Positions 1-23,481 of a stretch of DNA of 64,000 nucleotides are shown one piece after another. A program made the translations under genes and the position numbers. Numbering within the stretch: the first letter of the stretch is position 1; each line of letters begins with the position of its first letter. The notes under the pieces are model-generated. The model was given only the letters and a program-made list of their open reading frames with translations, made no database searches and was not told the origin of the DNA. Location of the stretch: positions 744,001-808,000 of the forward strand of contig NZ_JAQQKV010000001.1 of assembly GCF_028550435.1 (NCBI RefSeq), written 5' to 3'. This DNA comes from Asticcacaulis machinosus (lineage in GTDB: Bacteria; Pseudomonadota; Alphaproteobacteria; Caulobacterales; Caulobacteraceae).

Positions 1-801
1 CATATCCAGACCGCCGGTCACGTTGACCAGCACAGCCTTGGCACCCTTAAGCGAGGTTTCATCCAGCAGCGGGTTCTGAATGGCGTTTTGCGCCGCCTGC
101 ATGGCACGGTCATCGCCCGAAGCTTCGCCGGTACCCATCATAGCCTTGCCCATTTCGGACATAACCGAGCGCACATCGGCGAAATCGAGGTTGATCAGGC
201 CCGGCAGCACCATCAAGTCGGTGATGGAGCGTACGCCCGAATGCAGCACCTGATCCGCCAGCCCAAAGGCTTCGGCAAAGGTGGTGCGCTCATTGGCGAT
301 GCGGAAAAGGTTCTGATTAGGAATAATGATCAGCGTATCGACATAGCGTTGCAGCTCGGAAATCCCGGCATCGGCCAGACGCATACGGTGGCGGCCCTCG
401 AACGAGAACGGCTTGGTCACGACCCCGACAGTCAATATGCCGCGTTCACGCGCCGCGCGCGCGATAATGGGCGCCGCGCCCGTGCCCGTGCCGCCGCCCA
501 TACCGGCGGTGATAAAGACCATGTGCGCGCCTTCGAGGTGTTCGGCGATTTCATGGATGGATTCTTCGGCGGCGGTCATGCCGACTTCGGGATGCGCACC
601 GGCCCCAAGGCCTTGCGTCACGCCAATGCCAAGCTGCACACGCGCGTCAGTTTTGGAAAACTGCAATTGCTGCGCGTCGGTATTGGCGACGACGAATTCG
701 ACCCCTTCAAGGCCGGCTTCGATCATGTTGTTGACGGCATTACCCCCAGCGCCACCAACGCCGAACACGATGATCCGCAATCCTACTGGACGATCACTCA
801 T
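1..801 (-). CDS. ftsZ: Cell division protein FtsZ (3' end beyond window)
   Basis: Tubulin-like GTPase that polymerises into the Z ring at midcell. About 267 codons are visible; the C-terminal part lies beyond position 1. The reverse strand reads [20 protein letters not shown] at the N-terminus, then the tubulin signature GGGTGTG and the T7-loop motif NLDFADVR, so both halves of the GTPase site are intact. A TAA stop lies in frame directly upstream of the ATG, which fixes the start at 801; the Shine-Dalgarno is weak. In relatives ftsA sits immediately upstream in the dcw cluster, but here that side holds about 300 bases without a gene and then unrelated genes. It could be the sole FtsZ or a second copy; the strong match to Caulobacter FtsZ favours a functional one. 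Confidence 0.97.
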
Positions 802-1695: not shown

Positions 1696-2133
1696 GTGGA
1701 GCCCACAACCCTGACCTCGCTCGCCGGATCGTTGATGAGCCTATTCGGCGTCCTAGTCAGCCTCTTTTCCGTCCACCTCGGCAACTGGCTAGCCAAGCTC
1801 CAGGGCCTGCGGACGAAATGGGACATGAACAACGGGTCGGACGAGAAAGAAATCTCCGCCCGGCGGGAGTGCCGCTATACCATGGCGGAGATATATACCT
1901 GGCAACCGTTCATCATGACGGTCATCATCCTAGGGTTTGCCATCGGCGTCATCTACTTCTTCCATGATGTCAGCTGCCATCTGAAGGTGGTCTTTCCCAG
2001 CATCTTCGTGCCGCTCTATTATAGCTTCTTCGGGATCATGATCGTCCTGGAACTCTTCCTGCTTTATAGCGGCTGGCAGTTGGGTAGGGCTCTGACGGCT
2101 GACATCAAGGCGCAGTTCAAGCCCCAGGGATGA
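1696..2133 (+). CDS. Small membrane protein, second gene of helicase operon
   Basis: A 145-residue integral membrane protein that I cannot assign to a family. Hydrophobic segments lie at about residues 8-27, 72-90 and 100-125, with a charged stretch (about 40-62) between the first and second. The GTG start at 1696 follows the previous stop by 2 bases, and the 3' end overlaps the helicase start (ATGA at 2130-2133), which implies translational coupling. A small membrane protein coded with a helicase and an unknown soluble protein resembles defence operons that have a membrane effector; this is inference. Confidence 0.75.
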   Translation: MEPTTLTSLAGSLMSLFGVLVSLFSVHLGNWLAKLQGLRTKWDMNNGSDEKEISARRECRYTMAEIYTWQPFIMTVIILGFAIGVIYFFHDVSCHLKVVFPSIFVPLYYSFFGIMIVLELFLLYSGWQLGRALTADIKAQFKPQG

Positions 2134-3414
2134 TCACCAAGCCGCAGGCCAGGACCTTTCTGCGCCAAGCCCTCGATCGCGGCGCCGAGTTCAACGCATA
2201 TGATCTGCGCGCCTACCAAGTGACCGCGGCCTATAAGGCCGCGGATGCCCTTCTGGCCGGGCGCCACGCCGTCCTTACGCTCCCGACCGGCACCGGCAAG
2301 ACCCTGATCTGCGGCATGGCGGCAGCGCTTTATCTCCAGAACCGAACCGTCGGCCGCGTGCTTTTCACCGCGCCGCGGAGGACGCTGCTCAACCAACTGG
2401 GCACGAGATCAGCCTGGCTCAACCCGACCTTCCCGGCGACGGCGGTTGGTGCCGATCCGCGCGAGGACGACCGGCATGTCATGGCCAAATTCCGCCACGG
2501 CCGGGTCATCTTCGGCATGCCGGAATTCATGGGGACGCGTCTGGCAGCCGGCGTGATTTCTGAGAAGATCCTGTCGCAGGTATCGCTTCTGATCATCGAT
2601 GAGTTCGATCATTTCCTGACCCTGCGCTACCGCGTAGCCGATGCCGTGGTCACGTTTCACGAGGCGATCGAAAACCTGCTCTCGGCCTTGCCGAGGGACT
2701 GTCGCCTTCTCATGGTCAGTGCGACGACGCCTGCAGTGGCTAAGTCACCTGCCGGACTTCGTCTATGAAGACATGGCCCAGGACGTGTCGTCCTATGTCG
2801 CCGACACGTTTCGCTACGATCAGGAGCTCGAGCGCAAATACGAAGCCCAGGTCAGCCGGATCGATGGACCGCCGGAGGGCCCGGACGGGACTAAGGTTAT
2901 GTATCCGCGGCTGGGCCGCAAGGCTGAGGCCCTATTCCGTATCCTTAAGCGCCACCCCGGGCAGCGCGGGGTCCTGTTCTTCCGCAACATTCGCATCCTA
3001 GAACGCTTAGAAGCGGAGCTTGTTGCGGTCGGCTATCCTTGTGTCACCGTTCACGGCCAGAAGAAGCCGTCGCAGAACGACCAAACGCTTGACCAGTTCC
3101 GCCAGACTGACGGCTTGCTCCTGCTGATCACGCGAGACACCGGAAAGCGCGGTCTCGATCTGCCCGAGGCCGATTTCGCCGTCTTCTACAGCCCCAAGTC
3201 GCGCGACGACGTCACGTGGCAGGAGGTTAGCCGGATTCGGAGCACCCTCACAAATCGCAAAAGCACCTATATTCTATATTACAAAGGCACTGGTGAGGAA
3301 GAAAAACTCGACAATATGGTAGCGGGCCTCCGCGAAACAACTTATTCGGTTGGTATCCGGAAGGTGAGCGTTTCATTATTCAACGATCTAGATGATTTTG
3401 CCGAGACGGCTTGA
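2130..3414 (+). pseudogene. Superfamily 2 DEAD/DEAH-like helicase, interrupted by one frameshift
   Basis: A compact helicase of about 428 residues, split by a +1 frameshift near 2736. The first frame (2130-2768) has Walker A PTGTGKT (52-58), motif Ia TAPRRT, Walker B DEFD (157-160) and motif III SAT (197-199), then ends early after VAKSPAGLRL. The next frame continues as WLSHLPDFVYED and carries the second RecA-like lobe, including TRDTGKRGLDLPEADF (motif V) and EVSRIRS (motif VI). Removing the single G at 2736 in gcagtgg restores one frame. This may be a real inactivation, programmed slippage or an assembly error. DEFD in place of DEAH is unusual. It is coupled to the upstream membrane protein gene by a 4-base overlap. 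Confidence 0.85.
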
Positions 3415-3479: not shown

Positions 3480-4862
3480 TCAAGCAGTGAGAAGAGTTTG
3501 TAGATACGCCCTTAAGTTGTCAAAGCTGTACTTCAGTGCGGGCTCAGCCTCTAACTGTAGGGTCGCGATTTCTTCCAGAGCCTGTGACGCTGTCCGCCAT
3601 GGACCGCTTGCCGGTACGCAAATTCGGTCCTTAAATTCCCTACTTATTTCTGTGCGATGTTGTTCGGTAAGCAAGTGGGGGCGTTCGAAATAGGCCAGTC
3701 GAGCAGCAAAAGTTTTCAATCGAATGTCTGTCATCCTGTCGACGATGCTGCCTCGCTTTTCCCAGGGCAAATTATGAAAATCGACAGACAGCCGTGCGTC
3801 TAAATCCGAGATCCATTCACCATGTAGTCTCTCTTCGGGGTGTATCGACTGGGGATAAAACTTTTCTTTAGATCGGGCTAAGGCAAGCAGCCGTGCCTTG
3901 AGTTGGGGATGATCAGCTATGAATGCTGCGCTCTCTTCGGCCTGATCGCAACCGATACCGGTGACGGAAGCATCGTCGAGGTCCCACGCTGCCCAAAGCA
4001 TGGGCGAGGCATTTGTACGGAAACTACGAAAGACGCCGTCGTAAGTCCCCGCCAGCGCATCGAGATCCTCGTCGGTCATTTCCGCCATCGCGTGGGCATT
4101 CGCTCGTAGGTCAAGGCAATGAACCAGGTTTTGATCGCTAATACTGCGTCCCAGTTCTGCTGCCATTGTGAGACCAGGAATGCCGCCACGCACTTCCAGC
4201 AGGGCGAAAGCGGGCTCGTTCGCGATGAAAGCATTCGTTGCTTGCTTTGACACGAAACGCAGGAAGGCTGACCAGATATTTGACGCTCGCGATCGTATCA
4301 GAGCGCATAACGCAATGGTTGTTTCAACGTCGGCGGCCGCATCATGCTGTTTTCTGACCTGAATGTTGTTTGCAGCGGCCAATGCCTGCAGGGCAAAAGT
4401 TGGATTGCCAGTTGGCGCCGTTGGGACCTGCAGCACACCTGGAGCGACGACCGCCGTCGCGCGGGCCACATGCAAAGCATCCCCCCGCAGATTGCCGTTT
4501 AGACTGGTAAAGTAAGGTGGATGTAGGGTCTGGAAAAATGCTTGGCGCAGAAACTCTTCATCGAACTTGATCGAGTTGAAACCAACGTAGATTGCTGGGC
4601 CCCACGAAGTCAGCTTCTGAACTATCTCGCGAACCATCTCATAATGAGAGAGGCGATCTTCACTGTGCAATTCAGAGAGACTAAGTCCCGTAATACTCAG
4701 CGCTTTTGGCGCAGGTATGACGTTAGGTAGCAATTTAGACTTTACTTCGAACCGATCCATTGGAACCAGATTGTCGTCCGTCTTAACAGCGGCGAAATGC
4801 AAAATCTGATCGAAGCTTCTGTTCAAGCCCGTGGTTTCAACGTCGTAGAAAATCAGGGGCAT
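3480..4862 (-). CDS. Exodeoxyribonuclease I-like DEDDh exonuclease
   Basis: A 460-residue protein resembling SbcB/ExoI, a 3'-5' single-strand DNA exonuclease. All DEDDh residues are visible: D7 and E9 in DVETTG, D101 in FNSIKFDEEF, H173 and D178 in HDAAADVE. The length fits ExoI, which carries SH3-like and helical domains after the nuclease; those are not separately recognisable to me. It is the last gene of a minus-strand operon, 9 bases after the ImmA/IrrE peptidase gene. That partnership suggests a regulated, conditionally used nuclease, possibly in defence, rather than the housekeeping enzyme. It is not named sbcB because orthology cannot be checked here. Confidence 0.88.
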   Translation of the reverse strand: MPLIFYDVETTGLNRSFDQILHFAAVKTDDNLVPMDRFEVKSKLLPNVIPAPKALSITGLSLSELHSEDRLSHYEMVREIVQKLTSWGPAIYVGFNSIKFDEEFLRQAFFQTLHPPYFTSLNGNLRGDALHVARATAVVAPGVLQVPTAPTGNPTFALQALAAANNIQVRKQHDAAADVETTIALCALIRSRASNIWSAFLRFVSKQATNAFIANEPAFALLEVRGGIPGLTMAAELGRSISDQNLVHCLDLRANAHAMAEMTDEDLDALAGTYDGVFRSFRTNASPMLWAAWDLDDASVTGIGCDQAEESAAFIADHPQLKARLLALARSKEKFYPQSIHPEERLHGEWISDLDARLSVDFHNLPWEKRGSIVDRMTDIRLKTFAARLAYFERPHLLTEQHRTEISREFKDRICVPASGPWRTASQALEEIATLQLEAEPALKYSFDNLRAYLQTLLTA

Positions 4863-4871
4863 ATTGATCTA

Positions 4872-5387
4872 TCAGGGCTCCTGAAACGCCAGCAGCCGAA
4901 ATTGAAGCGCCATTGTGCTGACCTTAAACCGTCGAGCCAATTCGGATAGGCTTTCCTCGTCCTCAACGTCCAGGCTCTTATCCCTCAGGAACTCTCTCAG
5001 GAAGGTCTCGGGCATAAGTAGTTCAGCAGCAAACCGATTCGCTTGAATCTCTATGGGGTCGCTCCCTGTCGTAGCCAAGAAATCACGCCGCAATGTGCCC
5101 GTGTCGACGTGAACTGAACTTTCGAGAAGTTGCTGGTGCAAAATCATGTGCCCCAGTTCATGTGCAATAGTGAACCGTTGGCGATTCGGGTGATGGGCAT
5201 TGTTGACCCCAATGACCTTCACACCGTCCTTGATGAAGGCCATGCCGGAGAGTTTGTCGTCAAAGGCGCCGTATTGAATAGTGATACCTAACGATTTTGC
5301 GATTCGCTCGACATGTACGGGTGGCGACTTGACTTCAAACCTGGAAATCACGTCTCTAGCGGCTTGAATTTCTAGCAAAACGCTCAC
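4872..5387 (-). CDS. ImmA/IrrE family metallopeptidase
   Basis: A 171-residue zinc peptidase. HELGH (H76, E77, H80) is the catalytic motif, and the EIQANRFAAELLMP block (E113) carries the third ligand. Family members cleave a partner HTH repressor after DNA damage or another signal, as ImmA does for ImmR and IrrE for DdrO. The start overlaps the stop of the HTH gene (5384-5387), so the two are translationally coupled, the classic repressor-protease arrangement. The likely substrate is the HTH protein at 5384-5713, and the downstream exonuclease would be derepressed on cleavage; this is inference from family and context. Confidence 0.93.
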   Translation of the reverse strand: MSVLLEIQAARDVISRFEVKSPPVHVERIAKSLGITIQYGAFDDKLSGMAFIKDGVKVIGVNNAHHPNRQRFTIAHELGHMILHQQLLESSVHVDTGTLRRDFLATTGSDPIEIQANRFAAELLMPETFLREFLRDKSLDVEDEESLSELARRFKVSTMALQFRLLAFQEP

Positions 5388-5713
5388 GACGAGCGGCCCA
5401 TCGAGCGTAGAAATTGGTTTACTTGCGCCAGTTGAACGTCGTTAATCGAACTGCCGGACAACTGAATATTGTCGGGTTCAGCACTGAACAAAAACGCAGG
5501 CGGAACCAATTCCGATATCGACGATAAAGATAAGGCGTTCGCCAATTTATAAATATGATGCAGCATAAACTTCTGCCTTCCTGTCTCAATATTGGCCAGT
5601 GAGGCTCTTGTTAGGCCAATTTCCTTGGCAACTTCAGCCTGGGTCAAATTGAGCTTTTTGCGTTGCGCTGCGACCGCCGCTCCGACGACCTTATATAGTT
5701 CCATTTCAGACAT
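5384..5713 (-). CDS. XRE-family HTH regulator paired with ImmA/IrrE peptidase
   Basis: A 109-residue protein with a Cro/C1-type helix-turn-helix near the N-terminus (LTQAEVAKEIGLTRASLANIE, about residues 23-43) and a C-terminal part probably used for dimerisation or protease recognition. It is the first gene of the three-gene minus-strand operon. Two short perfect palindromes (5726-5738 and 5754-5772) lie 12 to 59 bases upstream of its ATG, as expected for autoregulation. The same intergenic space drives the divergent ubiquitin-like operon, so this regulator could control both. Confidence 0.93.
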   Translation of the reverse strand: MSEMELYKVVGAAVAAQRKKLNLTQAEVAKEIGLTRASLANIETGRQKFMLHHIYKLANALSLSSISELVPPAFLFSAEPDNIQLSGSSINDVQLAQVNQFLRSMGRSS

Positions 5714-5725
5714 GTTGTAACGCTA

Positions 5726-5738
5726 GGCCGTAACGGCC
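5726..5738. promoter_or_regulatory. GGCCGT-A-ACGGCC palindrome upstream of HTH gene
   Basis: A perfect 6+1+6 inverted repeat, 12 bases upstream of the HTH start codon. It could be an operator or lie in the 5' leader. Function is inferred only from position. Confidence 0.4.
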
Positions 5739-5753
5739 GTTGATGTCAATAGC

Positions 5754-5772
5754 ACAAACAATATATGTTTGT
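5754..5772. promoter_or_regulatory. ACAAACA-N5-TGTTTGT palindrome, likely HTH operator
   Basis: A perfect 7-base inverted repeat around ATATA in the 180-base divergent region between the HTH gene and the ubiquitin-like operon. Dyads of this size with short A/T spacers are typical XRE operators. It lies about 41 bases upstream of the HTH ATG and about 35 bases before the proposed promoter of the Ubl operon. Confidence 0.55.
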
Positions 5773-5806
5773 GATAAAAACATTATGAATAAATACGTGC
5801 TTATCA

Positions 5807-5837
5807 TTGACATTTATTGAGTCGTCTGTGCTTTATA
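5807..5837 (+). promoter_or_regulatory. Candidate sigma-70 promoter of ubiquitin-like operon
   Basis: TTGACA at 5807-5812 matches the -35 consensus; a weak -10 (CTTTAT or TTTATA, 5831-5837) follows at 18-19 bases. It would place transcription start some 50 bases before the first ATG at 5894. The -35 is good and the -10 poor. Confidence 0.4.
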
Positions 5838-5893
5838 GCGACACCGCTCTCATCATCCCTATGCTGGCGGCCAGTTGAAGGATTGTTTTTCCT

Positions 5894-6598
5894 ATGAGTG
5901 TTCCTCCCCCCAATGAAGGCGTGAACGGTCATCCCGGCCGCCGCGTGTATGTGTTCGAAACCGGCAATGAGAATTTCGATTTTCAGCGCCATGAGACGGA
6001 CGACGAAAAGGTCGTTGGCGTCCAGATCTGCGCTGCCGCTGGCAAGCACCCCGTCGAGGATTACGCGGTCCTCCAACAGCTGCCGTCTGGCGAAATCGAG
6101 TCGATCCGCCCGACCGAAAGCGTCACGCTGTCGATCGGCCAGGTCACCCGCTTCTTCGTTATCGAAGGCTTCAGCAATCGTCGATTCACCATCGATGGCT
6201 TGAGCTTCGAATGGCCGAAATCGGCGCTCGCTGTGTGTCACGCCAAGACACTGGCAGGGGCTCACCCGGAAGACGTCTTGGTCCTGGATCGCGATGATGG
6301 CGACATTGTCCTTCACGATCATGATTTCGTCGATCTGGACTCCGATGGTGTCGAGCGTTTGAAGCTGCGTAAGCGCCCGAAGTTGGTCGATGTGATCTAT
6401 AATGAGGCGGTCTTCCAGCTCGAACGCCGTGACTACACGGTGGCGGAACTGATGGCTTCGTTCGGCGTCAAGCCGGGCTACGTCCTCGAATTGATCAAAC
6501 CTGACGGCGAGTTCAAAGAACTGAAACCTAACCAGATTGTCAATGTTCACGAAGGGCTGGTCTTCGTTTCGCACGCCTACTGCGGTCACTCGTCATGA
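5894..6598 (+). CDS. Multiubiquitin protein: three tandem ubiquitin-like domains
   Basis: A 234-residue protein of the Multiubiquitin type. Three beta-grasp repeats can be aligned by eye: about 17-92, 95-162 (RRFTIDG ... AKTLAGAHPEDVLVLDR ... VDLDSDGVERLKL) and 164-228 (VDVIYNEAVF ... YVLELIKPDGEFKELKPNQIVNV). The repeated pattern is an initial strand, an AG-x-x-P turn, a hydrophobic strand, then VDL or VTL before a (V)ERL or TRF strand. It is presumably the modifier, or a scaffold of modifiers, for the E1 and JAMM proteins coded downstream. The C-terminus is AYCGHSS, with no Gly-Gly, so canonical conjugation would need trimming or another chemistry. First gene of a tight four-gene operon; its stop overlaps the next ATG. 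Confidence 0.92.
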   Translation: MSVPPPNEGVNGHPGRRVYVFETGNENFDFQRHETDDEKVVGVQICAAAGKHPVEDYAVLQQLPSGEIESIRPTESVTLSIGQVTRFFVIEGFSNRRFTIDGLSFEWPKSALAVCHAKTLAGAHPEDVLVLDRDDGDIVLHDHDFVDLDSDGVERLKLRKRPKLVDVIYNEAVFQLERRDYTVAELMASFGVKPGYVLELIKPDGEFKELKPNQIVNVHEGLVFVSHAYCGHSS

Positions 6599-6933
6599 CC
6601 GATCTCAACCATGAGATCGCGCGGTTGAAGGCCGTGTGCGCTCTGGCTGAGCCCTGGCAGGAGGGCGGCACGATCGCTGTCTATCTGCCGGGGCTCAAGA
6701 TCATAGGGCCCAAGGGAGAGGTTCACATCTTGGACGCGCTCCTTTGGCCTCACGCGCGCGATAGCTATCCAACCCGCCTCTATTTGGAGCGGGCAATTCC
6801 GCATTCAAGCACCGCTGGTTGGACGGAGTCGGTCATCATGGGCCGTACCTGGCAAGTCCTATCCTGGCGCGATGTTCCGGCTCATCTGCCATGGATCGAA
6901 ATCCTGGCGAACCACATGAGGCCCTTTCGATGA
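6595..6933 (+). CDS. E2/UBC-like protein of prokaryotic ubiquitin-like system
   Basis: A 112-residue protein whose position and pattern fit the prokaryotic E2 family E (Prok-E2_E): a strand with YLPGLKIIGPKGEVHILDALLWPHARD, then TRLYLERAI, then GRTWQVLSWRD and a C-terminal helix HLPWIEILANHM. The only cysteine is C15 near the N-terminus, not in the core where E2 enzymes carry the thioester cysteine. It may be a non-catalytic E2-fold adaptor. It overlaps the modifier gene (ATGA 6595-6598) and the JAMM gene (ATGA 6930-6933). The E2 assignment rests partly on the operon, so it is less sure than its neighbours. Confidence 0.75.
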   Translation: MTDLNHEIARLKAVCALAEPWQEGGTIAVYLPGLKIIGPKGEVHILDALLWPHARDSYPTRLYLERAIPHSSTAGWTESVIMGRTWQVLSWRDVPAHLPWIEILANHMRPFR

Positions 6934-7436
6934 ACGTGTGCCTGAAAATTACGTCAGCCATGTTGGCGGCCATCCGGGAGGATCTCGGTCGGCGTCATGC
7001 GTTCGCGCATGAACGGGTCGGCTTTCTGACGGCGGGCGCTTCGGCGCTGCTGGGTCCCGACCTTCTGCTGACCGCAAGGACCTACCGTCCCGTCGACGAA
7101 GAGGACTACATGCCTGACCCATCGGTCGGAGTGAAGATCGGCCCGGGCGCAATGCGCAAAGCACTTCAGGCGGCTTACCGTCCGCCGGCCGCGATCCTTC
7201 ACATTCACACTCATGGTGGATGTGGCCGACAGCATTTCAGCGGCGTGGACAAGCAAAGCGCCGGCGACTTCGTACCGAGCTTCTTCAACGTGGTGCCGCG
7301 CATGCCTCACGGGATCGTAGTGCTGAGTGATGATTGCGCCAATGGGCTCCTATGGCTCGGTCCCGACCATCAAGCTCGATCCTTCGTCGACATCGTTGCC
7401 GTCGGCGCCCCGTTATCGAAATACGGAGATATGTAG
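6930..7436 (+). CDS. JAB/JAMM metallopeptidase (deubiquitinase-like)
   Basis: A 168-residue Zn peptidase of the Mov34/MPN/PAD-1 type. E28 (in HERVGFLTAG), H93 and H95 (HIHTHGG), S104 and D107 (SGVD) match the JAMM set, with one extra residue between the second His and Ser compared with the usual x7. Such enzymes in ubiquitin-like operons mature the modifier or remove it from targets. I chose the ATG at 6930, which overlaps the E2 stop, over the upstream ATG at 6819, which would run through the E2 gene. The substrate is presumably the three-domain modifier. Confidence 0.9.
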   Translation: MNVCLKITSAMLAAIREDLGRRHAFAHERVGFLTAGASALLGPDLLLTARTYRPVDEEDYMPDPSVGVKIGPGAMRKALQAAYRPPAAILHIHTHGGCGRQHFSGVDKQSAGDFVPSFFNVVPRMPHGIVVLSDDCANGLLWLGPDHQARSFVDIVAVGAPLSKYGDM

Positions 7437-8345
7437 ATGGCCTGGTTGGATCGGCAAAGCTTCCTCGGCGCGAATTCCGATACGGTATTGCGCAATGCGA
7501 AAGTCGGCCTTGCGGGGCTCGGCGGCGGCGGCTCGCACGTCGCCCAGCAGTTGGCCCACGTGGGAATCGGTACCTTCGTCTTGGTGGACGATGACAGCCT
7601 TGAGGATTCAAACCTAAATCGACTAGTCGGGGGGCGGTTCGACGACATCGCGCCCGAAACCGAAAAGTTTGAAATCGCGCGACGCCTAATCCTCGGCATC
7701 AACCCGAATGCTGACATTAAGGGTGCTGCCAAACACTGGCAGGCCTTCATCGATGAATTCAAGTGCTGCGACCTGATCATAGGCGGGCTTGACTCTGTGA
7801 GGGCCAAGCACGAACTTGAAGGCTTCTGTCGGCGGTTCATGATCCCTTACATAGATATGGGGATGGATGTGAACCCGATTGGAGAAGGCGAATTTTTCGT
7901 CTCTGGCCAGGTCGTACTTTCTATGCCTGGGCGACCATGCCTTCAATGTTTTGGTGTGGTGAGGGAAGAAGACCTTGATCGAGAGGCGCGCAACTATGGT
8001 GCCGCCGGCGGCAAGCCCCAGGTCATCTGGCCGAATGGTGTCCTTGCTTCCAGCGCGGTTGGACTTTGCATTCAAATACTGACGCCTTGGCACGGTCGGC
8101 CAAGCGACTCCATCTATCTTGAGTATGATGGCAACGAGCATACGGTGAAGCGCCGCGAAGGCCTCGACCGAATGTTGGTCCACGGATGCCACCACTATCG
8201 CGCTGAAGACACTGGTGATCCGGGGTTTGACATTCGAAAGCACTTGCTCAACTCCACAACGGTCTTCGCCGAAGCAGTGTCACCAACTCCAGAAAGGTTG
8301 TCATGGTGGCAAGCGCTCTGGGCGCAAATTCGACGGAAGAATTAG
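7437..8345 (+). CDS. E1-like ThiF/MoeB-family activating enzyme
   Basis: A 302-residue adenylating enzyme. The ATP loop GLGGGGSHV (28-35), acidic VDDDSLEDSNLNR (50-62; NLNR supplies Arg62) and GLDSVRAK (117-124) are the ThiF/E1 hallmarks. C168 and C171 (GRPCLQC) look like half of the zinc site, perhaps completed by C251 and H252/H253 (HGCHHY); the second CxxC of MoeB is absent. Possible thioester cysteines include C131, C211 and C251; I cannot choose. The ATG follows the JAMM stop directly. Last gene of the Ubl operon; it would activate the C-terminus of the modifier. Confidence 0.93.
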   Translation: MAWLDRQSFLGANSDTVLRNAKVGLAGLGGGGSHVAQQLAHVGIGTFVLVDDDSLEDSNLNRLVGGRFDDIAPETEKFEIARRLILGINPNADIKGAAKHWQAFIDEFKCCDLIIGGLDSVRAKHELEGFCRRFMIPYIDMGMDVNPIGEGEFFVSGQVVLSMPGRPCLQCFGVVREEDLDREARNYGAAGGKPQVIWPNGVLASSAVGLCIQILTPWHGRPSDSIYLEYDGNEHTVKRREGLDRMLVHGCHHYRAEDTGDPGFDIRKHLLNSTTVFAEAVSPTPERLSWWQALWAQIRRKN

Positions 8346-9373: not shown

Positions 9374-9713
9374 TTCTTCCTCCGCCAACGGCCTAAATCC
9401 CCATACCCACCCCTGTATGATAATGCCGCAAACGACGTATCCGCGAATTGAAATCGCTATTTGGATGCAATTCAAGTCCGCAACTCACCCACTGATTGTA
9501 TAGGTGTTTAGCCTTTGCTTTACGCCCTCCCCGTAACCTGCAACCCTATCTTCACGCAAAAAAGTTCATGGTTAAGATATACCGTCTGTCCATAGGTTAA
9601 CCCTTTGCGCCGGTAGAACTTATCCAGACTCCATCCCCCTACCGCCATATTCTGTCAGCATTAGATCTGAGCGACGTTCCCCCATCGTCCTATTGACTCC
9701 CACCACGCTTATG
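9374..9713. other. Gene-free region upstream of imuA
   Basis: No supported gene. It contains the minus-strand start region of the DUF6499 gene and, to the right, the promoter area of imuA. TTAA motifs near 9575 and 9598 do not have CtrA spacing. Confidence 0.4.
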
Positions 9714-9728
9714 GAACAAAAAGAGAAC
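9714..9728. promoter_or_regulatory. LexA (SOS) box upstream of imuA
   Basis: GAAC-AAAAAGA-GAAC is a perfect match to the alphaproteobacterial LexA operator GAAC-N7-GAAC (GTTC-N7-GTTC on the other strand). It lies 45 bases before the GTG I choose as the imuA start and inside the longer open frame, arguing against the upstream ATGs at 9693 and 9711. Confidence 0.85.
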
Positions 9729-9773
9729 TTAATTAATGTAAAGCGCCCTCATGCCTCAGAAAGATGCAAACCT

Positions 9774-10532
9774 GTGCCCGCCCCGTCCCGTTCCACCCTC
9801 ACCGATCTCAGAGCCCGTATCCGACGTCTGGAAACCGTTGATGGTCGCGAGCGGACGTACCTGCCGTTTGGCATCCGGGAGATTGATCAACGGCTGCCGG
9901 GGGGCGGCCTGGCGTTAGGCTCTCTGCATGAGGTGGCCGGTGGCGGCTCCGGGGCCATTGATGGCGCGGCAGCCGCCGGATTTTGTGCCGGCATTGCGGC
10001 CCGGACGGGTGGCCAGGTGCTGTGGTGTCTAACCCGCCTCGATTTATTTCCCCCCGGCATTGCTCAGGCAGGTCTGCCTCCGGAGCGTTTGATCCGGGTC
10101 AGGGTTGATGACGAAAAATCTGTGCTTCTGGCGTTCGAAGAAGGCTTGCGCCACGGCAGCCTAACGGCGGTGGTTGCCGAGGTCGCCAAACTTGACATGA
10201 CCACATCAAGACGCCTGCAGCTTGCGGCTGAAAGCACGGGTACGCTGGCTTTAGCCTTAAGACGCTGGCGGCGCGAGACGGAGGCCGGGGATTTCGGGCA
10301 ACCGACGGCGGCGCGCACCAAATGGCGGGTAAGCGAGGTGATGCCGGAAGCCTTGAGCGTGCCTGGCGTTGCCCGGGCCCGCTGGGCGCTGGAATTGTTA
10401 CGCGTGCAAGGTGCGAATTGCGCCGATTTTATAGTGGACGCTTGTGATGAGCAGGGTTTTATCGCTCTACCTTCCGTATTGGCCGACCGAACGGCTGCGC
10501 CGGACGTCGGGATCTGGGGCGCCCGGGCGTGA
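9774..10532 (+). CDS. imuA: ImuA, RecA/SulA-like mutagenesis accessory protein
   Basis: A RecA-fold accessory protein for SOS mutagenesis with ImuB and DnaE2. PFGIREIDQRLPGGGLALGSLHEV is characteristic; the frame continues with LWCLTRLDLFPPGIAQAGLPPERL and a conserved C-terminal core ending near GFIALP. The GTG at 9774 gives 252 residues; longer forms from ATG 9693 or 9711 would include the LexA box in the coding sequence and are less likely. imuB begins inside the 3' end in another frame (85-base overlap), so the two are co-translated. Regulation by LexA is predicted. Confidence 0.88.
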   Translation: MPAPSRSTLTDLRARIRRLETVDGRERTYLPFGIREIDQRLPGGGLALGSLHEVAGGGSGAIDGAAAAGFCAGIAARTGGQVLWCLTRLDLFPPGIAQAGLPPERLIRVRVDDEKSVLLAFEEGLRHGSLTAVVAEVAKLDMTTSRRLQLAAESTGTLALALRRWRRETEAGDFGQPTAARTKWRVSEVMPEALSVPGVARARWALELLRVQGANCADFIVDACDEQGFIALPSVLADRTAAPDVGIWGARA

Positions 10533-11964
10533 GGTCCCTCTGGTTTTAAAAGGGGTTGAGCGCGGCAAACGGGTGGTGACCGCCGTGGATGACCTGGCGC
10601 AAAAAATTGGCGTGCGTCCCGGCATGGCCATAGTGAAAGCCCAAGCCCTGTTCAGCGATCTTGTCCTGATGGACGCCGATCCCCGCGAAGATGCTCAAGC
10701 CCTCGAACGATTAGCGCTATGGGCGCTACGCCTGTCGCCTGTGGTTGCCGCCGATCCCCCCGACGGGCTGGTGATCGACACGACGGGGGCGGATCACCTG
10801 CATGGCGGCGAAGCTAACATGATCGAGACGGTTACCCGGCGCCTTAGCGAGACCGGGATTACCGCCGTGCCGACTTTGGCTGACACTTGGGGTGCGGCCC
10901 ATGCTTTGGCGCGTTTTGGTCGCAGCGTGTCTCCTATTACCCCGCCGGGCGAAACCGCTCAGGTTCTTCTCGACTTGCCGGTGGCCAGCCTACGGCTCTC
11001 CCCCGCCCTCGTTGACAGTCTAAGGGGACTGGGGTTTGAGCGCATAAGCGATCTGGCCTCTCAGCCGCGGGCACCGCTGACCTTGCGGTTTGGCCCGGAG
11101 CTTGGCCGGCGGCTGGATCAGGCGTTCGGTCGTGAGCGGGAGCCTATCAAGGCGGCGGTTGAGGCTAAAACTATTAGGGTGGAGCGTGTCTTTGCCGAGC
11201 CCATTGGCGCACCCGAGACGATCAGGCGATACGCACTCAAGCTGATTGTTCAATTGTGTGACGCGCTGGAAGTGGCGGGGCTTGGGGTCCGCACCGCCGA
11301 TCTGTTGTGTCAGCGGGTCGACAACCGGGTGGAAAGTGTTCGGATTGGGACGGCGCGCCCTTTGCGGGATGTTAAACAGTTAACGCGGTTGCTCGGGGAT
11401 AAGCTCGATACTGTTGATCCGGGGTTTGGGATTGAGGTTATGAGCCTGGCCGCCACACTGACGGAGCCCCTGGGGGCGCGCCAACTGCACTCCAGTCTGA
11501 TCGGCCCTGACACGCCGGACGTCGGCTCTCTGGTTGATATTCTGGCCAATCGACTAGGGGAGAACACCATTGAGCGCCCCTGCCCGGCCGCTTCTGACCT
11601 GCCTGAGCGCAGCGTGCAGTGGATCAGCCCCATGAGCGCGGTTAAAACGCCGTGGGCTCATGACTGGAAGCGGCCGACACGGCTTTTGCCCCGGCCTGAA
11701 GCCATTGAGGTTCTGGCCTTGTTGCCGGATAGTCCACCCCGGACCTTTAAGTGGCGTGGCATACGGCGCCGGGTCATGCAGGCCGATGGACCTGAACGGG
11801 TCTTTGGGGAATGGTGGAAGCGTGATCCTGAGCTGGAATCGATCCGGGATTACTACTACCTCGTCGATGAGACTGGCAAACGCTACTGGGTGTTTCGAAT
11901 GGGCGATGGTGAGTTTGATGCCACCGGCGATCAGAGTTGGTATATGCACGGCCTTTTCGCTTGA
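10447..11964 (+). CDS. imuB: ImuB, Y-family polymerase-like mutagenesis protein
   Basis: A DinB/UmuC-like protein of 505 residues starting MSRVLSLYLPYWPTERLRR, a typical ImuB N-terminus. ImuB members keep the Y-family fold but generally lack the catalytic acidic residues; they bind the beta clamp and recruit DnaE2 to lesions. A helix-hairpin-like stretch LRGLGFERISDLA lies near residues 193-206, and the C-terminal part (GEWWKRDPELESIRDYYYLV) is typical. The ATG at 10447 overlaps imuA and is preferred over GTG at 10444. Expected to share the LexA-controlled promoter of imuA. Confidence 0.93.
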   Translation: MSRVLSLYLPYWPTERLRRTSGSGAPGREVPLVLKGVERGKRVVTAVDDLAQKIGVRPGMAIVKAQALFSDLVLMDADPREDAQALERLALWALRLSPVVAADPPDGLVIDTTGADHLHGGEANMIETVTRRLSETGITAVPTLADTWGAAHALARFGRSVSPITPPGETAQVLLDLPVASLRLSPALVDSLRGLGFERISDLASQPRAPLTLRFGPELGRRLDQAFGREREPIKAAVEAKTIRVERVFAEPIGAPETIRRYALKLIVQLCDALEVAGLGVRTADLLCQRVDNRVESVRIGTARPLRDVKQLTRLLGDKLDTVDPGFGIEVMSLAATLTEPLGARQLHSSLIGPDTPDVGSLVDILANRLGENTIERPCPAASDLPERSVQWISPMSAVKTPWAHDWKRPTRLLPRPEAIEVLALLPDSPPRTFKWRGIRRRVMQADGPERVFGEWWKRDPELESIRDYYYLVDETGKRYWVFRMGDGEFDATGDQSWYMHGLFA

Positions 11965-12039
11965 TCACGCCTATCAAGCCCCTATGAGCCCCCGCACAGT
12001 CCAATCCGCACATGGCTCGCACCCAGATTCTCATGGAGT

Positions 12040-12426
12040 CTAGGCCTCCTGATGCGCGTCCACCTCTTCTTTCAGACCCTGAAGGCTATGGTCTAGGACG
12101 GGCGTATCGGCGTCAGTCGAGCCACTGTCATCCACGCTTTGCTCCTGATCCTCAAGCGGCTGAGTGTGAAGGTGTGCGACATGCCCATCGTCATCAGCGT
12201 GTGGGGCCACGTTCCCGGCTGCGACGGGTAAGGGTGCGGATTGTGGTGCATGCTTCATGGCTTCTTCGCGCAGCCAACGGGCGATGGCCTGGTCCCGTTC
12301 CTGGAGGGCGCGCAAACCTGCCCGGATCACTTCGCTGGTGGCGGCATAGTCACCGGACTTCACCTTTTCGTCGATATAGGCCACCTGATCCCGGGTTAAG
12401 CTGATGGTTCTTTTTTCAATAGACAT
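12040..12426 (-). CDS. ParD/CopG-like antitoxin with long acidic His-rich tail, no toxin partner
   Basis: A 128-residue protein. The first 62 residues (EKRTISLTRDQVAYIDEKVKSGDYAATSEVIRAGLRALQERD) match the ParD ribbon-helix-helix antitoxin family. The remaining half is an unusual tail rich in His, Asp, Glu and Gln (APHADDDGHVAHLHTQ, then acidic). No ParE toxin gene lies beside it: imuB precedes in the opposite direction and dnaE2 follows divergently. It may be an orphan antitoxin or a repressor acting near dnaE2. Confidence 0.8.
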   Translation of the reverse strand: MSIEKRTISLTRDQVAYIDEKVKSGDYAATSEVIRAGLRALQERDQAIARWLREEAMKHAPQSAPLPVAAGNVAPHADDDGHVAHLHTQPLEDQEQSVDDSGSTDADTPVLDHSLQGLKEEVDAHQEA

Positions 12427-12569
12427 GGATCACCTAGGGTCTTTGCCGACTCAGTTTGACGGCGTGTCATCGGCGGACGTGCTCATGAAAAAAAAAGAGC
12501 CGCCCCACAAGGCCGTTTGGCAGAGGTAATGGCCGGCCTCACCTGCGGCCATAGACTCCCATGTGAAAA

Positions 12570-12584
12570 GAACATAGAGTGAAC
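12570..12584. promoter_or_regulatory. LexA (SOS) box upstream of dnaE2
   Basis: GAAC-ATAGAGT-GAAC is a second perfect GAAC-N7-GAAC operator, ending 31 bases before the ATG at 12616. With the box before imuA it marks a split imuAB and dnaE2 SOS regulon, since the antitoxin gene separates the two. Confidence 0.88.
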
Positions 12585-12615
12585 ACATTATTCATTCGGG
12601 CCTTACGTGATCGTC

Positions 12616-15600
12616 ATGCGTTATGCTGAACTTCAGGTGACCAGTCATTTTTCCTTTCTGCGCGGGGCGTCTTCAGCCGATGAGCTATTTGCCACGGCTA
12701 AGGTCTTAGGGATTGCGGCCTTAGGCGTTACCGATCGCAACAGTTTGGCGGGCATGGTGCGCGCGCATGTCGCGGCGCAGGCGCACGGGGTCCGCCTGGT
12801 GGTTGGGTGTCGTCTGGATCTCAGGGATGGGAGTTCTGTCCTCGTCTACCCTATGAACCGCGAGGGCTATGGTCGTTTATGCCGCCTGCTTACGCTCGGC
12901 AAAGGCCGGGCCGGCAAAGGAAAGTGTGACCTGGATTGGGATGATGTGGGTCATTACCATGAGCATTTGATCGCAGTGCTCATCCCCGACGCCCCTGATG
13001 AGGTGACCGTTCGTAACCTGCGGCGCCTGAAGATGATATTTGGTGACCGGGCGTACCTGTCACTGTGTCTACGCCGTCGTCAGAACGATCAGGTACGTCT
13101 GCTTGATCTGTCAAACATGGCCATGGCGGTCGGGGTCGATACGGTTGTGACCAATGATGTGCTCTATCATGAGCGGGGACGTCGTCAACTTCAGGACGTT
13201 CTGACCTGTATTCGTAATCGCACCACGATTGATGATGTGGGATTTCATCGTGAGCGTTTTGCCGACCGCTACCTCAAGCCCCCTGAAGAAATGGCCAGGC
13301 TTTTTCCGTCTTATGGCGCCGCCCTGCGACGGACAATGGAGATCAGCGAGCGGTGCACGTTTTCCATGTCGGAACTCACCTATCAATATCCTGAGGAAAG
13401 GGTGCTGACCGGCATGTCGGCACTTGAAGCGCTCAAGCGATACACCTGGCAGGGCGCACGGCAACGCTACCCTGAAGGCGTGCCCGATAAGGTTATGACG
13501 ATCCTGCGTCACGAACTGGCGTTGATCGAGCAACTGGACTATGCCCCCTATTTCCTGACGGTGCATGCCATTGTCCGCTATGCCAGAGGTCAGGGCATAC
13601 TCTGTCAGGGACGCGGGTCTGCGGCCAATAGTGCGGTGTGCTATGTGCTCGGCGTGACGTCGATCGATCCGGATCGCAATGATTTGCTATTTGAGCGGTT
13701 TATCTCGGCGGAGCGCAATGAGCCGCCGGATATTGATATCGATTTCCAAAATGACCGCCGTGAGGAGGTCATTCAATGGGTGTACGAAACCTATTCCCGT
13801 GATCGGGCGGCCCTGTGCTGCAATGTCAGCCGTTATCGGACCAAAGGCGCGCTCAGGGACGTCGGCAAGGCTCTGGGGCTGCCGCTTGATGTGATCGAGA
13901 CCCTGACGTCGCAGGTATGGGGCTGGTCCAGCGAAGGTCTTCAGCCGCAACACACCCAAGGCTTAGGGATTAATCTCAATGACCGGCGCATTCGCCTGAC
14001 CCTGCAATTGGCGCAAGAGCTTGAAGGGACACCGCGCCACCTCAGCCAACATCCGGGCGGCTTTGTGCTCACCCAGGATCGGCTTGATGAGTTGGTTCCG
14101 ATCGAGCCCGCCACCATGGAAGACCGCCAGGTCGTCGAATGGGACAAGGACGATATCGACGCCCTCAAGTTTATGAAGGTCGATCTTCTGGCGCTGGGAA
14201 TGCTGACCTGTGTGCAAAAGGCGCTTGATCTTCTCTATGCGCATAAGGACATTGATCTCGATATGGCGAGCATTCCGGCCGAGGATCCGCGCACCTACGC
14301 CATGATCCGTAAAGCCGATACCTTGGGGACCTTTCAGGTCGAAAGCCGCGCGCAAATGAACATGCTGCCGCGTTTGAAGCCGCGCAGCTTTTACGATCTG
14401 GTCATTCAGGTGGCCATTGTCCGGCCCGGTCCAATTCAGGGAGATATGGTCCATCCCTATCTGAGACGCCGAGACGGATTGGAAAAGGTCGAGTTTCCTA
14501 CACCTGAACTGGAAAAGGTCTTGGGTAAGACCTTGGGCGTTCCGCTTTTTCAGGAGCAGGCCATGCAGGTGGCCGTCGTTTGTGCTGGCTTTACACCTGG
14601 GGAATCCGATCAATTGCGCCGAAGCATGGCGACATTCAAACACACGGGCGGGGTGTCCAAATTTAAGGACAAGCTGATCAGCGGTATGCTCACCCGGGGC
14701 TACAGCCAGGCATTTGCCGATCAAACCTTTGGGCAGTTGGAAGGCTTTGGGGCTTATGGCTTTCCGGAGAGCCATGCGGCCTCGTTCGCCTTGATTGCCT
14801 ATGCCTCGTGCTGGATAAAATGTTGGCATCCGGACGTGTTTTGCGCCGGCTTACTCAATTCCCTGCCCATGGGCTTTTATCAACCGGCCCAGATCATACG
14901 GGACGCTCTTGAACACAAGGTTGAGGTCCGACCGGTGTGCATTAACGCCTCACGTTGGGACAGTACCTTGGAGCCTACCAAAAACGAGGGGCGGTTCGCG
15001 GTGCGCCTGGGCTTTCGAACCATCAAAGGCGTGAATAACGCCCATATTGCCACCCTACTGGCCAGTCGTATGGACCGGGCGTTCACCAGCGTTGAAGATG
15101 TCTGGCGCCGCGCCAAGGTCCCTACCGCCACCCTGGTCACCTTAGCCCATGGTGACGCCTTTCAAGGTTTGGGTCTCAGCCGTCGTGAGGCCTTATGGGC
15201 GATTAAGGGCCTGCGTGATGAACAATTGCCCTTATTTGCCGCTGCGGCGCGCGCAAGTGAGGATCAGTTTATACCGGAGTTTGAGGAAGCCCCGGTGCAA
15301 CTGAAGGCCATGACAAGGGGCGGCGAAGTGGTTCAGGATTATAATCACTTAGGTCTAAGCCTTCGAGACCATCCGGTGACGTTCCTGCGCCCGAGCCTGA
15401 CCAATCGTAAAATCCTGTCCTGTCGTGAGGCGGGCCTGGCTCAGGACGGTAAATATGTCCCGTGTGCCGGCCTGGTGTTGGTGCGACAGCGGCCCGGATC
15501 GGCATCGGGGGTCGTCTTTATCACCATGGAAGATGAGACCGGGATCATTAATGTGATCGTGTGGCCGAAAACTTTTGAGCTTTATCGCCGCACGGTGATG

Positions 15601-15840
15601 CAGTCGAGCCTTCTGCTGGTCTCAGGGACGATCCAGCGCGAGGGCGAGGTTGTCCATTTGATCGCGCGTAGCCTTACAGACCTCACACCTGAACTGTCAG
15701 AGATAGATAAGCTTGAAGGCCCTTTACAGGTGCGCTTTGGCCGGGGGGATGAATTTGCGCACGGCGGGCCAGGCCGGGACAGCCGCACACATATGCCCAA
15801 TGGACAGGCACTGCGGCTGAAATCCAGAGACTTTCATTGA
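12616..15840 (+). CDS. dnaE2: Error-prone DNA polymerase DnaE2
   Basis: Alternative C-family DNA polymerase III alpha subunit, about 1074 residues, shorter than the replicative DnaE as expected. The PHP domain opens at [20 protein letters not shown] with the Asp/Asn-rich [14 protein letters not shown] block. Catalytic aspartates lie in [14 protein letters not shown], and the fingers carry [16 protein letters not shown]. The C-terminal OB-fold ([19 protein letters not shown]) is intact. ATG at 12616 is preferred over GTG at 12607. With ImuA and ImuB it does mutagenic translesion synthesis under LexA control; a LexA box lies just upstream. Confidence 0.96.
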
Positions 15841-19431: not shown

Positions 19432-20178
19432 ATGTTATTCAAATCTGAGGGCTATAAATTCGAGGACTATGTCGAACACACCAACCGGATACTCAACGCT
19501 GACATACTGTTTGACCACTTCGTTGAGACTATGAAAGGTCAGGGTTACGATCGTATCATTTTTTCAATTCCAAGAGATATTGAGCTATCCAAGGCTCAGA
19601 ACCGCCTCGGCCTGTTTCACAACTATCCCGATGACTGGCAGAAATTCTATGCTGAGAAAAAATTTGAGAGTCTGGATCCGGTACTCAAATTTGCAGGGTC
19701 CTACCCGTGGGCTTTCAGATGGCGTGACATTGAACGGACACACACCTTAAGTCACAGGCAAATCCGCTTTTTCCGGCAAGGCGAAGAGGCTGGTCTGAAT
19801 AACGGCATAGGCATTCCCCTGCATGGCAAACATGCCCAGATAGCCGGCGTTGCTATGGCATGTTCGGTGATGAACCCGGGGCGGCAATCGAACCTCGACC
19901 TCATCAGTGCCTACTGCCAGCAGTTTTACTTGAGCTTCAAGCGCTTAAACTGCCGGGACGCTCCCCCTGTGGGTGTCGTTGCGACGCTAACACCTAAGGA
20001 GACCGAGGTCCTGACCTGGCTGGCCACAGGCTGCAGCGACGAGGAGATTGGCCGCAAACTCGGCATAAGCGCCAACACTGTGGATAGCCACCTACGGAGT
20101 ATTTATCATAAGCTTCAGGTCAACGGGCGTCTCCCCGCCGTCGTTAAGGGGATAATGTCAGGTCTAATAAATCCTTAG
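19432..20178 (+). CDS. luxR: LuxR-family quorum-sensing regulator
   Basis: A 248-residue regulator with an N-terminal autoinducer-binding domain and a C-terminal LuxR HTH. W69, Y73 and D82 (DWQKFY ... LDPV) and W97 match the acyl-homoserine-lactone pocket residues of TraR-type proteins. The HTH is LTPKETEVLTWLATGCSDEEIGRKLGIS with TVDSHL after it. It sits 70 bases before luxI on the same strand, so this is the cognate receptor. Palindromes flank it on both sides. Gene symbol is by family; the exact orthologue name is unknown. Confidence 0.93.
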   Translation: MLFKSEGYKFEDYVEHTNRILNADILFDHFVETMKGQGYDRIIFSIPRDIELSKAQNRLGLFHNYPDDWQKFYAEKKFESLDPVLKFAGSYPWAFRWRDIERTHTLSHRQIRFFRQGEEAGLNNGIGIPLHGKHAQIAGVAMACSVMNPGRQSNLDLISAYCQQFYLSFKRLNCRDAPPVGVVATLTPKETEVLTWLATGCSDEEIGRKLGISANTVDSHLRSIYHKLQVNGRLPAVVKGIMSGLINP

Positions 20179-22254: not shown

Positions 22255-22476
22255 ATGAACAAACCCAATCCGTTTCTAACCAAGATTGTGACTAACGGCC
22301 GGATGAGAGATTTCCGCCGCGCGCCCTTTCATATTCGGCGCGGCAATTGGATCTCACATTTTCCACCACGCCTAATCCTTGCGGTGATATTTTTAGCTCT
22401 GATGTTGGCCGCCGGCACCCTAACGGCTTTTGCACTGAGACGCACAGATGGTGTCGTAAGCCTCAAGGGTGAATAA
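22255..22476 (+). CDS. Small single-pass membrane protein
   Basis: A 73-residue protein starting at ATG 22255 with AAGGAC upstream. It has a basic N-terminal half and one membrane segment (LILAVIFLALMLAAGTLTAFAL). Its end overlaps the convergent LuxR gene by a few bases. Function unknown. Confidence 0.55.
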   Translation: MNKPNPFLTKIVTNGRMRDFRRAPFHIRRGNWISHFPPRLILAVIFLALMLAAGTLTAFALRRTDGVVSLKGE

Positions 22477-23194
22477 CACCTATCATAATACCCCGCACGG
22501 ATGCGGCTACACGGCTATTGACGTCAAGTTTCCGAAAGATATGGCGCATATGCGAATCAACGGTGTTACGAGAAATGTTAAGGGCTGCGCCAATCTCATC
22601 ATCCGTTCGTCCCGTCGCCACGCGCATCAGTATCTCTCTTTCCTGAGGGGTTAGGGTGATAGGCAAAGAAGGCTTAGACTTTGCATTTAAACGCTTATAC
22701 GCCGTGTAAAACCAGGTGCAGTAGGCGTTGATCAGATCCAGATCTTTGAGGCATTCGTCCTGTTTGTGGGACGTTGCCAGGGCGACACCCGCTATTTGAG
22801 CGCCTTTTCCGCGCAAGGGGATGCCCACACCGTTATTTAGGCCCGCCTCTTCGCCTAAGCGCATGAATTTAACTTGCGCCTTGCTTAGGGGCAGGTCGCG
22901 CTCAAGGTCAGACCACTGAAACGCAAAGTCATAGGTAGCGGCGCATTTCAGGACGGGATCGATTCTCGCAAAATCTTTCTCAAGGTAGAACTTATGCCAG
23001 TCCTCAGGGTAGCGGTGAAACAGTCCGATCTGGTTTAAATGCTCAGGCAGATCGGGATCGCGGGGAACGGAAAAAATAAGGCGATCATAGCCGTAGCTGC
23101 CCATGACAGAGGTGAACCTGTCAAATAGCGCTTCAGTCGATGTCTCTTGAGAGTTTTGCGAGATAAAGTCCCCGAAACTATCAGATCGCATCAT
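22463..23194 (-). CDS. Second LuxR-family regulator (no adjacent synthase)
   Basis: About 243 residues. It is a clear paralogue of the regulator at 19432-20178: YPEDWHKFY, then RIDPVLKCA, then FMRLGEEAGLNNGVGIPL align, and the pocket residues W, Y and D are conserved. The HTH is LTPQEREILMRVATGRTDDEIGAALNIS. No luxI lies next to it, so it is a LuxR solo or shares the signal made by luxI 2 kb away. Start ATG at 23194 or 23191; GTG at 23221 is possible. No copy of the TCACGCG palindrome was seen upstream. Confidence 0.9.
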   Translation of the reverse strand: MMRSDSFGDFISQNSQETSTEALFDRFTSVMGSYGYDRLIFSVPRDPDLPEHLNQIGLFHRYPEDWHKFYLEKDFARIDPVLKCAATYDFAFQWSDLERDLPLSKAQVKFMRLGEEAGLNNGVGIPLRGKGAQIAGVALATSHKQDECLKDLDLINAYCTWFYTAYKRLNAKSKPSLPITLTPQEREILMRVATGRTDDEIGAALNISRNTVDSHMRHIFRKLDVNSRVAASVRGIMIGVIHP

Positions 23195-23481
23195 TGGACA
23201 CCCCGAATCTATCCCACCCACACTGATCCTTTATCACTGCGTACTCAATTGCAATCCATGTCGAATTCACACACTCGTTACCACCTATGGGTGTGCCCGT
23301 CATTCAAACTGAGAATTAGCAGATTGGGTTTGATTGAATTGCTTCGCTATCGCTAAGGGTGGCCTTGCGTCCTTGAGGACGAGGTGACGGACAAGCGCAG
23401 TATTTCAAGTCATTAGGCGTACCCAAGGCAAACCAATACCTCAGTCGCTGCCACAAAAAAACAGGCACGACTTGACCCGGC

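Follow-up and report, generated by a model that had tools for sequence, protein, structure and literature searches.

Which kind of ubiquitin-like conjugation system is encoded by the four packed genes on the forward strand at positions 5894-8345 of a 64,000-nucleotide stretch of Asticcacaulis machinosus (contig NZ_JAQQKV010000001.1, positions 744,001 to 808,000; this whole stretch is called the window below), and what controls it? The genes specify a 234-amino-acid (aa) modifier, a 112-aa E2-like protein, a 168-aa JAMM peptidase and a 302-aa ThiF-type E1, and are referred to here as the cassette. We interpret it, with a probability of roughly 0.77, as a compact Bub-type (polyUbl, type 6e) conjugation system controlled by a divergent CapH-CapP-like module. 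This divergent module, which combines a helix-turn-helix (HTH) protein, a CapP-family peptidase and an SbcB-like exonuclease, was overlooked by the initial annotation of the window, made from the sequence alone, and is the new part of this finding. The cassette comprises:

5894..6598, + strand: three-domain ubiquitin-like modifier, BubA-like (Pfam Multi_ubiq; PDB 9d59; glycine at -4)
6595..6933, + strand: small E2-like (UBC/RWD-type) protein, BubB-like, no invariant cysteine
6930..7436, + strand: JAMM/JAB metallopeptidase, unfused to E1 (E28...HxHx8SxxD; hhalign to JAB domains)
7437..8345, + strand: E1-like ThiF-fold adenylyltransferase (Pfam ThiF; profile match to Citrobacter BubCD)

Components of the cassette and their active-site residues

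Twelve complete cassettes were assembled from plasmid records, genome loci and one viral contig (L060), namely the window, L005-L010, L012, L048-L050 and L060, with L006 representing three Rhizobium leguminosarum plasmid records (H2-H4) that are nearly identical and enter the count as one. The order modifier-E2-JAMM-E1 is kept in 12/12, and in each the first and second junctions both show a 4-bp overlap; the JAMM-E1 junction ranges from -14 to +1, and in the window the start of the fourth gene abuts the end of the third. The complete conjugation operon claimed by the initial annotation is thus borne out by the same order in 11 other loci. Homologues that always lacked an E1 or JAMM partner, or models without a ubiquitin fold, would have counted against that annotation; both partners are present, and multi-ubiquitin proteins of solved structure are matched by the modifier.

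The modifier, correctly described as triple, contains three Pfam Multi_ubiq stretches (E 2.5e-23), and its matches in the PDB include 9d59 (E 2.8e-21) and two solved structures, of 247 and 261 aa, named “multi-ubiquitin domain-containing” proteins. In the window it ends in Y-C-G-H-S-S, with Gly231 followed by a three-residue tail. A glycine stands fourth from the C-terminus in all 12 modifiers. The three residues after it are x-S-S in ten of them, while L049 has x-A-A and L060 has x-A-S, where x stands for H, Q, G or A; hence a processing protease would be needed to clip the tail. The JAMM protein, whose gene adjoins that of the E1 in every cassette, has invariant E28, H91, H93, H95 and D107, with S104 in 11/12, the L060 protein lacking the Ser of the SxxD motif. 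It aligns with the JAB domains of fused polyUbl-type E1s (hhalign 99.1%, 142 columns, E 4.2e-19), and the N-terminal domains of seven such fusions all possess the E, HxHx8 (x9 in L014), S and D pattern, four of them matching Pfam Prok-JAB weakly (best E 1.9e-5). The JAMM profile found no match among PDB sequences at E up to 1.

The E2-like proteins (109-114 aa) share invariant P32, L50, P52, Y58, R61, L62, W76, W86 and S90; when they are aligned with seven BubB-type proteins, W86-x3-S90 falls on W and S columns common to 17/19. The single cysteine of the window protein, C15, is present in 6/12, and the best cysteine columns likewise reach only 6/12 with none invariant, which upholds the earlier description of this E2 as cysteine-poor. 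A profile of these proteins recovered only unrelated PDB sequences (best E 1.2).

The E1 retains the glycine-rich nucleotide loop and D119, and its crossover-loop pattern P-x-V...N...A is common to many polyUbl-type E1s. Its profile finds Citrobacter BubCD as the best PDB match (E 4.1e-18). A quick FastTree analysis of 34 rows, with MoeB and ThiF included and with L013 (an E1 fragment) and L051 (at a contig end) set aside, united the 12 cassettes with Spirosoma L011 in one clade (support 0.916). Four cysteines are invariant in the cassette E1s: C111, C168, C171 and C251. Of these, C168, C171 and C251 align with MoeB C172, C175 and C247, which we take to be zinc ligands, and by this alignment C168xxC171...C251xH253 is likely a zinc site. 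C111 lies where a core strand begins, ahead of D119, a placement in the fold that would make it non-catalytic. The column of MoeB C187 and ThiF C184, presumably the reactive cysteines, holds a cysteine in none of the 32 other E1s, in a loop that is hard to align and has one row gapped. With the E1 lacking a cysteine at the catalytic position and the E2 lacking a conserved one, no conserved thioester relay is visible.

Recurrence and phyletic spread

A tblastn search with the E1 matched 121 of 72,556 plasmid records, and its top ten (44-58% identity) are the same ten records that the E2 and JAMM searches returned. The cassette is rare among genomes: with the genome of the window counted each time, the E1 was found in 1/385 genomes from the class (E 1e-40), in 4/299 from the order (profile search, 1e-40), and in 7/398 from the phylum (1e-20), looser relatives among them. 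Multi_ubiq proteins of any kind occur in 12/385 genomes of the class, 11 above the family cut-off. A further search of genome contigs added one more distant locus, L003. The ftsZ end of the window (1-801) is conserved in a genome of the same genus (G640), in which the cassette E1 was not found at E 1e-40.

Viral contigs yielded no relative by E1 single sequence, E1 profile or modifier profile, and phage records gave no match in the modifier search. The JAMM profile recovered one viral contig, L060, and two later scans returned it again along with one short match, L077. L060 (IMGVR_UViG_3300045912_000815) encodes at 4370-6306 the E2-JAMM-E1 set with a one-domain modifier, immediately upstream of a phage portal-like open reading frame (ORF), the portal, capsid and sigma factor ORFs having been identified by eye; thus, such gene sets are also carried on phage-like elements. 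In Spirosoma L011 (pSLIN02) the JAMM and E1 form one ORF with a Tn3 transposase just upstream; an E2 homologue lies at 684-1001 of this record, distant from the fused gene.

The divergent module and its candidate operator

The genes and sites facing the cassette are:

5384..5713, - strand: HTH repressor, transcribed away from the cassette and CapH-like in its position (Pfam HTH_3, E 7.7e-13)
4872..5387, - strand: M78/ImmA-IrrE peptidase of the CapP family, overlapping the HTH gene by 4 bp (Pfam Peptidase_M78, E 2.4e-28)
3480..4862, - strand: SbcB/ExoI-like DEDDh exonuclease, encoded last of the three genes in the regulatory operon
5754..5772, unstranded: candidate operator ACAAACA-ATATA-TGTTTGT, flanked by divergent -35-like boxes
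5807-5812, + strand: -35-like box TTGACA
5749-5744, - strand: -35-like box TTGACA

The M78 peptidase has CapP (7t5t) as its best PDB match (E 1.4e-7) and matches the PADLOC capP model (E 1.2e-36). The exonuclease matches PADLOC RTasSbcB, listed under DRT (defence-associated reverse transcriptases; E 5.8e-98), and NCBIfam exodeoxyribonuclease I (E 3.8e-48, below the model cut-off); its D, E, D, H, D set is invariant in 9/9 sequences. HTH, CapP and SbcB-like genes occur together in nine loci, five of them cassettes (window, L006, L007, L048 and L049). Elsewhere the module accompanies an operon (L037) that encodes DUF6527 and a short modifier of one domain, faces two plasmid operons matching PADLOC BilA, BilB and BilD (L061 and L063), and faces a plasmid CBASS (cyclic-oligonucleotide-based anti-phage signalling system) operon with a cyclase and a SLATT effector (L062). 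The seven closest plasmid matches of the exonuclease (H101-H107 of 13, the six weakest, H108-H113, being left out) all lie beside such ubiquitin-like or CBASS operons: H104-H106 correspond to L061-L063, and the other four carry the cassette within a few kb. The initial annotation had proposed looking for the gene order near other defence genes; the order recurs in the 12 cassettes, and the divergent module also faces Bil and CBASS operons elsewhere. A limited search of the literature found no description of CapP, CapH and SbcB together.

We compared 11 intergenic stretches, each running from the HTH start to the facing operon; among them are L042 and L043, which have HTH and M78 genes with no exonuclease seen, the L043 contig ending just past the M78 gene. 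Exact ACAAACA half-sites number 14 in 9/11 stretches versus 9 in the remaining 197,269 bp of the same loci, and shuffled stretches hold a mean of 0.72. The motif was chosen after seeing the inverted repeats of the window and L006; without these two, 11 sites remain in 7/9 stretches. Some stretches share short similarity and so are not all fully independent. Of the two Bil loci, L061 has exact half-sites; L063, like L048, has one-mismatch copies only. GTCAA and TTGAC boxes lie on opposite strands 50-85 bp apart in 11/11 (a raw count), and the exact half-sites lie between them, except for one of the two in L061. The half-site is absent from four cassettes with other neighbours (L005 and L008-L010).

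A proposed mechanism and its alternatives

We propose that the HTH protein would bind the ACAAACA half-sites and keep both divergent promoters shut. DNA damage or phage replication would generate single-stranded DNA, activating the CapP-like peptidase, which would then cut the repressor; the SbcB-like exonuclease, expected to digest single-stranded DNA, probably ends or limits this signal. Once the cassette is expressed, the JAMM peptidase would clip the three-residue tail (here H-S-S) and expose Gly231, which the E1 would adenylate, and the E1 and E2-like protein would pass the modifier to target proteins, from which the JAMM peptidase may additionally remove it. Because the E1 lacks a cysteine at the catalytic position and the E2 an invariant one, this transfer would be a non-thioester reaction. 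We infer these reactions, like any role in phage defence or the DNA-damage response, from residues and gene neighbourhoods. The same module and half-sites facing Bil and CBASS operons suggest that cassette expression is induced by DNA damage and, less firmly, that the cassette acts in defence, the best hint of the latter being this shared control module, an association only.

A bolder version of this scheme, which we hold only tentatively, is that the cassettes constitute a Bub sub-branch with no cysteine relay, the E2 perhaps acting via Ser90, run by a portable sensor of repressor, CapP-type peptidase and SbcB-like exonuclease that destroys its own trigger single-stranded DNA, with sensor and half-sites serving Bil, CBASS and Bub alike. 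If true, a single damage signal would turn on unrelated immune systems with an off switch built in.

Several observations weigh against a Bub-type system under CapH-CapP-like control. The E2 structural model, made from one sequence, is weak (pLDDT, the predicted local distance difference test score, 61.4); its fold may resemble that of BubB, and Foldseek gave no significant match with it. Of the Pfam comparisons suggested by the initial annotation, Multi_ubiq and ThiF recognized the modifier and the E1, and Prok-E2_E failed to match the window E2; hhalign of the E2 with Prok-E2_E-type proteins was also poor (26.5%, 42 columns). A JAMM structure prediction from two sequences reached pLDDT 29 and was unusable for fold searches. 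The full module stands beside just 5/12 cassettes, so the regulator is not obligatory: L009 and L010 have a different HTH and M78 pair, L005 and L008 have Xre-RES genes nearby, L060 has an M78 homologue only, and neither L012 nor L050 showed any part of the module. The half-site arrangement varies (more than one in 4/11 stretches, one in five, none exact in two), the window palindrome is not a fixed form, and a promoter scan did not find the forward promoter. In the account given in PMC13373217, Bub operons are not shown to protect against phage. A calcium site in the DLDSDG (DxDxDG) stretch of the modifier was considered and dropped, the stretch not being conserved in the family.

Three other explanations have to be set beside this one. 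Filament formation might be the main business of the modifier, with the E1, E2 and JAMM proteins building and dismantling a polymer and conjugation to foreign targets being secondary. Work attributed to Gong in 2025 is said to show three-domain bacterial ubiquitin-like proteins forming filaments, and the modifier here matches the solved multi-ubiquitin proteins of 247 and 261 aa, which reportedly do so; against this, L060 has a one-domain modifier with the same E2-JAMM-E1 set, so that three domains are not required, and the DxDxDG stretch is not conserved. We consider this unlikely. A biosynthetic or sulfur-carrier pathway, in which a MoeB/MoaD or MccB-like enzyme adenylates a peptide carrier and no protein is conjugated, would fit the missing thioester cysteine, the retained CxxC site aligning with MoeB/ThiF cysteines, and a single-sequence E1 search of the PDB led by MccB and ThiF with BubCD third. 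However, the E1 profile moves BubCD to first place, a ubiquitin-like modifier, an E2-like protein and a JAMM peptidase accompany the E1 in 12/12, and no sulfurtransferase is named in the annotated neighbourhoods of six cassettes, making this pathway quite improbable.

Least probable of all is a Bil-type (ISG15-like) anti-phage operon tagging virion proteins through the usual E1-E2 thioester cascade, and membership in Bil was rejected on unmatched models and the lacking E2 cysteine. The initial annotation had held the gene order to be unlike Bil, which is wrong: modifier-E2-JAMM-E1 follows the order suggested by the letters BilA-B-C-D in the relevant part of PMC11354881, and that of L063 as far as its BilA, BilB and BilD genes go. 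Two Bil operons are also faced by the upstream module seen here. The initial annotation was right that this is not a tested Bil system: PADLOC BilA, BilB and BilD models match the true Bil operons L061 and L063 at 1e-40 to 1e-124, whereas at E up to 1 PADLOC recognizes neither the modifier nor the E2 here, no family in it fits the JAMM, and the best 25 of 30 PADLOC rows for the E1 are all CBASS E1-E2 rather than BilD. Moreover, the E1, with its single ThiF domain, has 302 aa versus the 453 positions of the BilD model, and the E2 has no invariant cysteine, compared with the CEHH cysteine used by BilB as described in that part of PMC11354881.

Other genes near the cassettes

Damage-response genes near the cassette in the window include a probable ImuA/ImuB/DnaE2 mutasome at 9693-15840, of which ImuB was assigned from Pfam IMS and the other two were recognized by eye, and, at 23949-24620, an SRAP peptidase. 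A DEAD-box helicase at 2130-3414, with N- and C-terminal parts in two overlapping frames, looks broken, and two LuxR-type autoinducer-binding regulators lie close to each other at 19432-20178 and 22463-23221. In other loci, Xre-RES toxin-antitoxin-like pairs occur near a cassette or polyUbl-type operon (L005, L008 and L014), where the HTH-CapP pair was not seen; PD-(D/E)XK nuclease and/or UvrD-like helicase genes adjoin ubiquitin-like operons (L006, L008 and L061), perhaps marking a common plasmid insertion site; and an ATP-binding protein and S8 peptidase pair lies immediately 3' of the E1 in L009 and L010.

Comparison with known systems

The “distinct branch” envisaged by the initial annotation proves to have been described: the passages of PMC1779556 on polyUbl operons of type 6e depict sporadic, mobile operons with one to three ubiquitin-like repeats and JAB and E1 domains fused or adjacent, and noted already in 2006 an E2/RWD-like domain without a cysteine, sometimes alone between the modifier and JAB+E1. 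We infer that type 6e is what is apparently now called Bub, for which structures are solved, from the BubCD and BubB structures and a Citrobacter operon (L057). The relevant part of PMC13373217 treats Bub operons as putative immune pathways, 219/544 of which sit with CapW or CapH+CapP. The cassettes resemble these in their tandem modifier, E2-like protein lacking a catalytic cysteine, JAMM peptidase, ThiF-type E1, mobile plasmid setting and nearby CapH+CapP. They differ from Bub, as known through that part of PMC13373217, and from type 6e in having JAMM and E1 as separate genes, in their short E2 (109-114 aa) unmatched by Pfam Prok-E2_E, and in lacking the DUF6527/metal-binding partner reported for the polyUbl operon type, though not stated for all: a profile from four DUF6527 proteins found it in 0/12 cassette stretches and matched 10 further loci. 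The Bub family is known; in the variant here it is pared down to four small proteins, each encoded on its own, and the tail to be cleaved is sharply conserved. There being no fusion enzyme, processing, activation and transfer can be tested one by one.

With Bil the cassettes share the order of four genes, although at L063 this reads BilA, BilB, one intervening gene and BilD, and the HTH-CapP-SbcB module found at two plasmid Bil loci; they differ in the shorter E1, the three-domain modifier, the E2 without an invariant cysteine and the lack of matches to the Bil models tested. CBASS Cap2/Cap3 systems include a JAB partner, and the E1 here is a distant relative of theirs (PADLOC E1-E2, E 4e-12); the cassette differs in having neither an E1-E2 fusion nor a cyclase. 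The common sensor module and half-sites tie Bub, a putative immune pathway, to operons of types with proven activity against phage. The module itself resembles CapH+CapP in placing an HTH repressor gene and then a capP-family M78 peptidase gene beside an immune-type operon, and differs in its third gene, the SbcB-like exonuclease.
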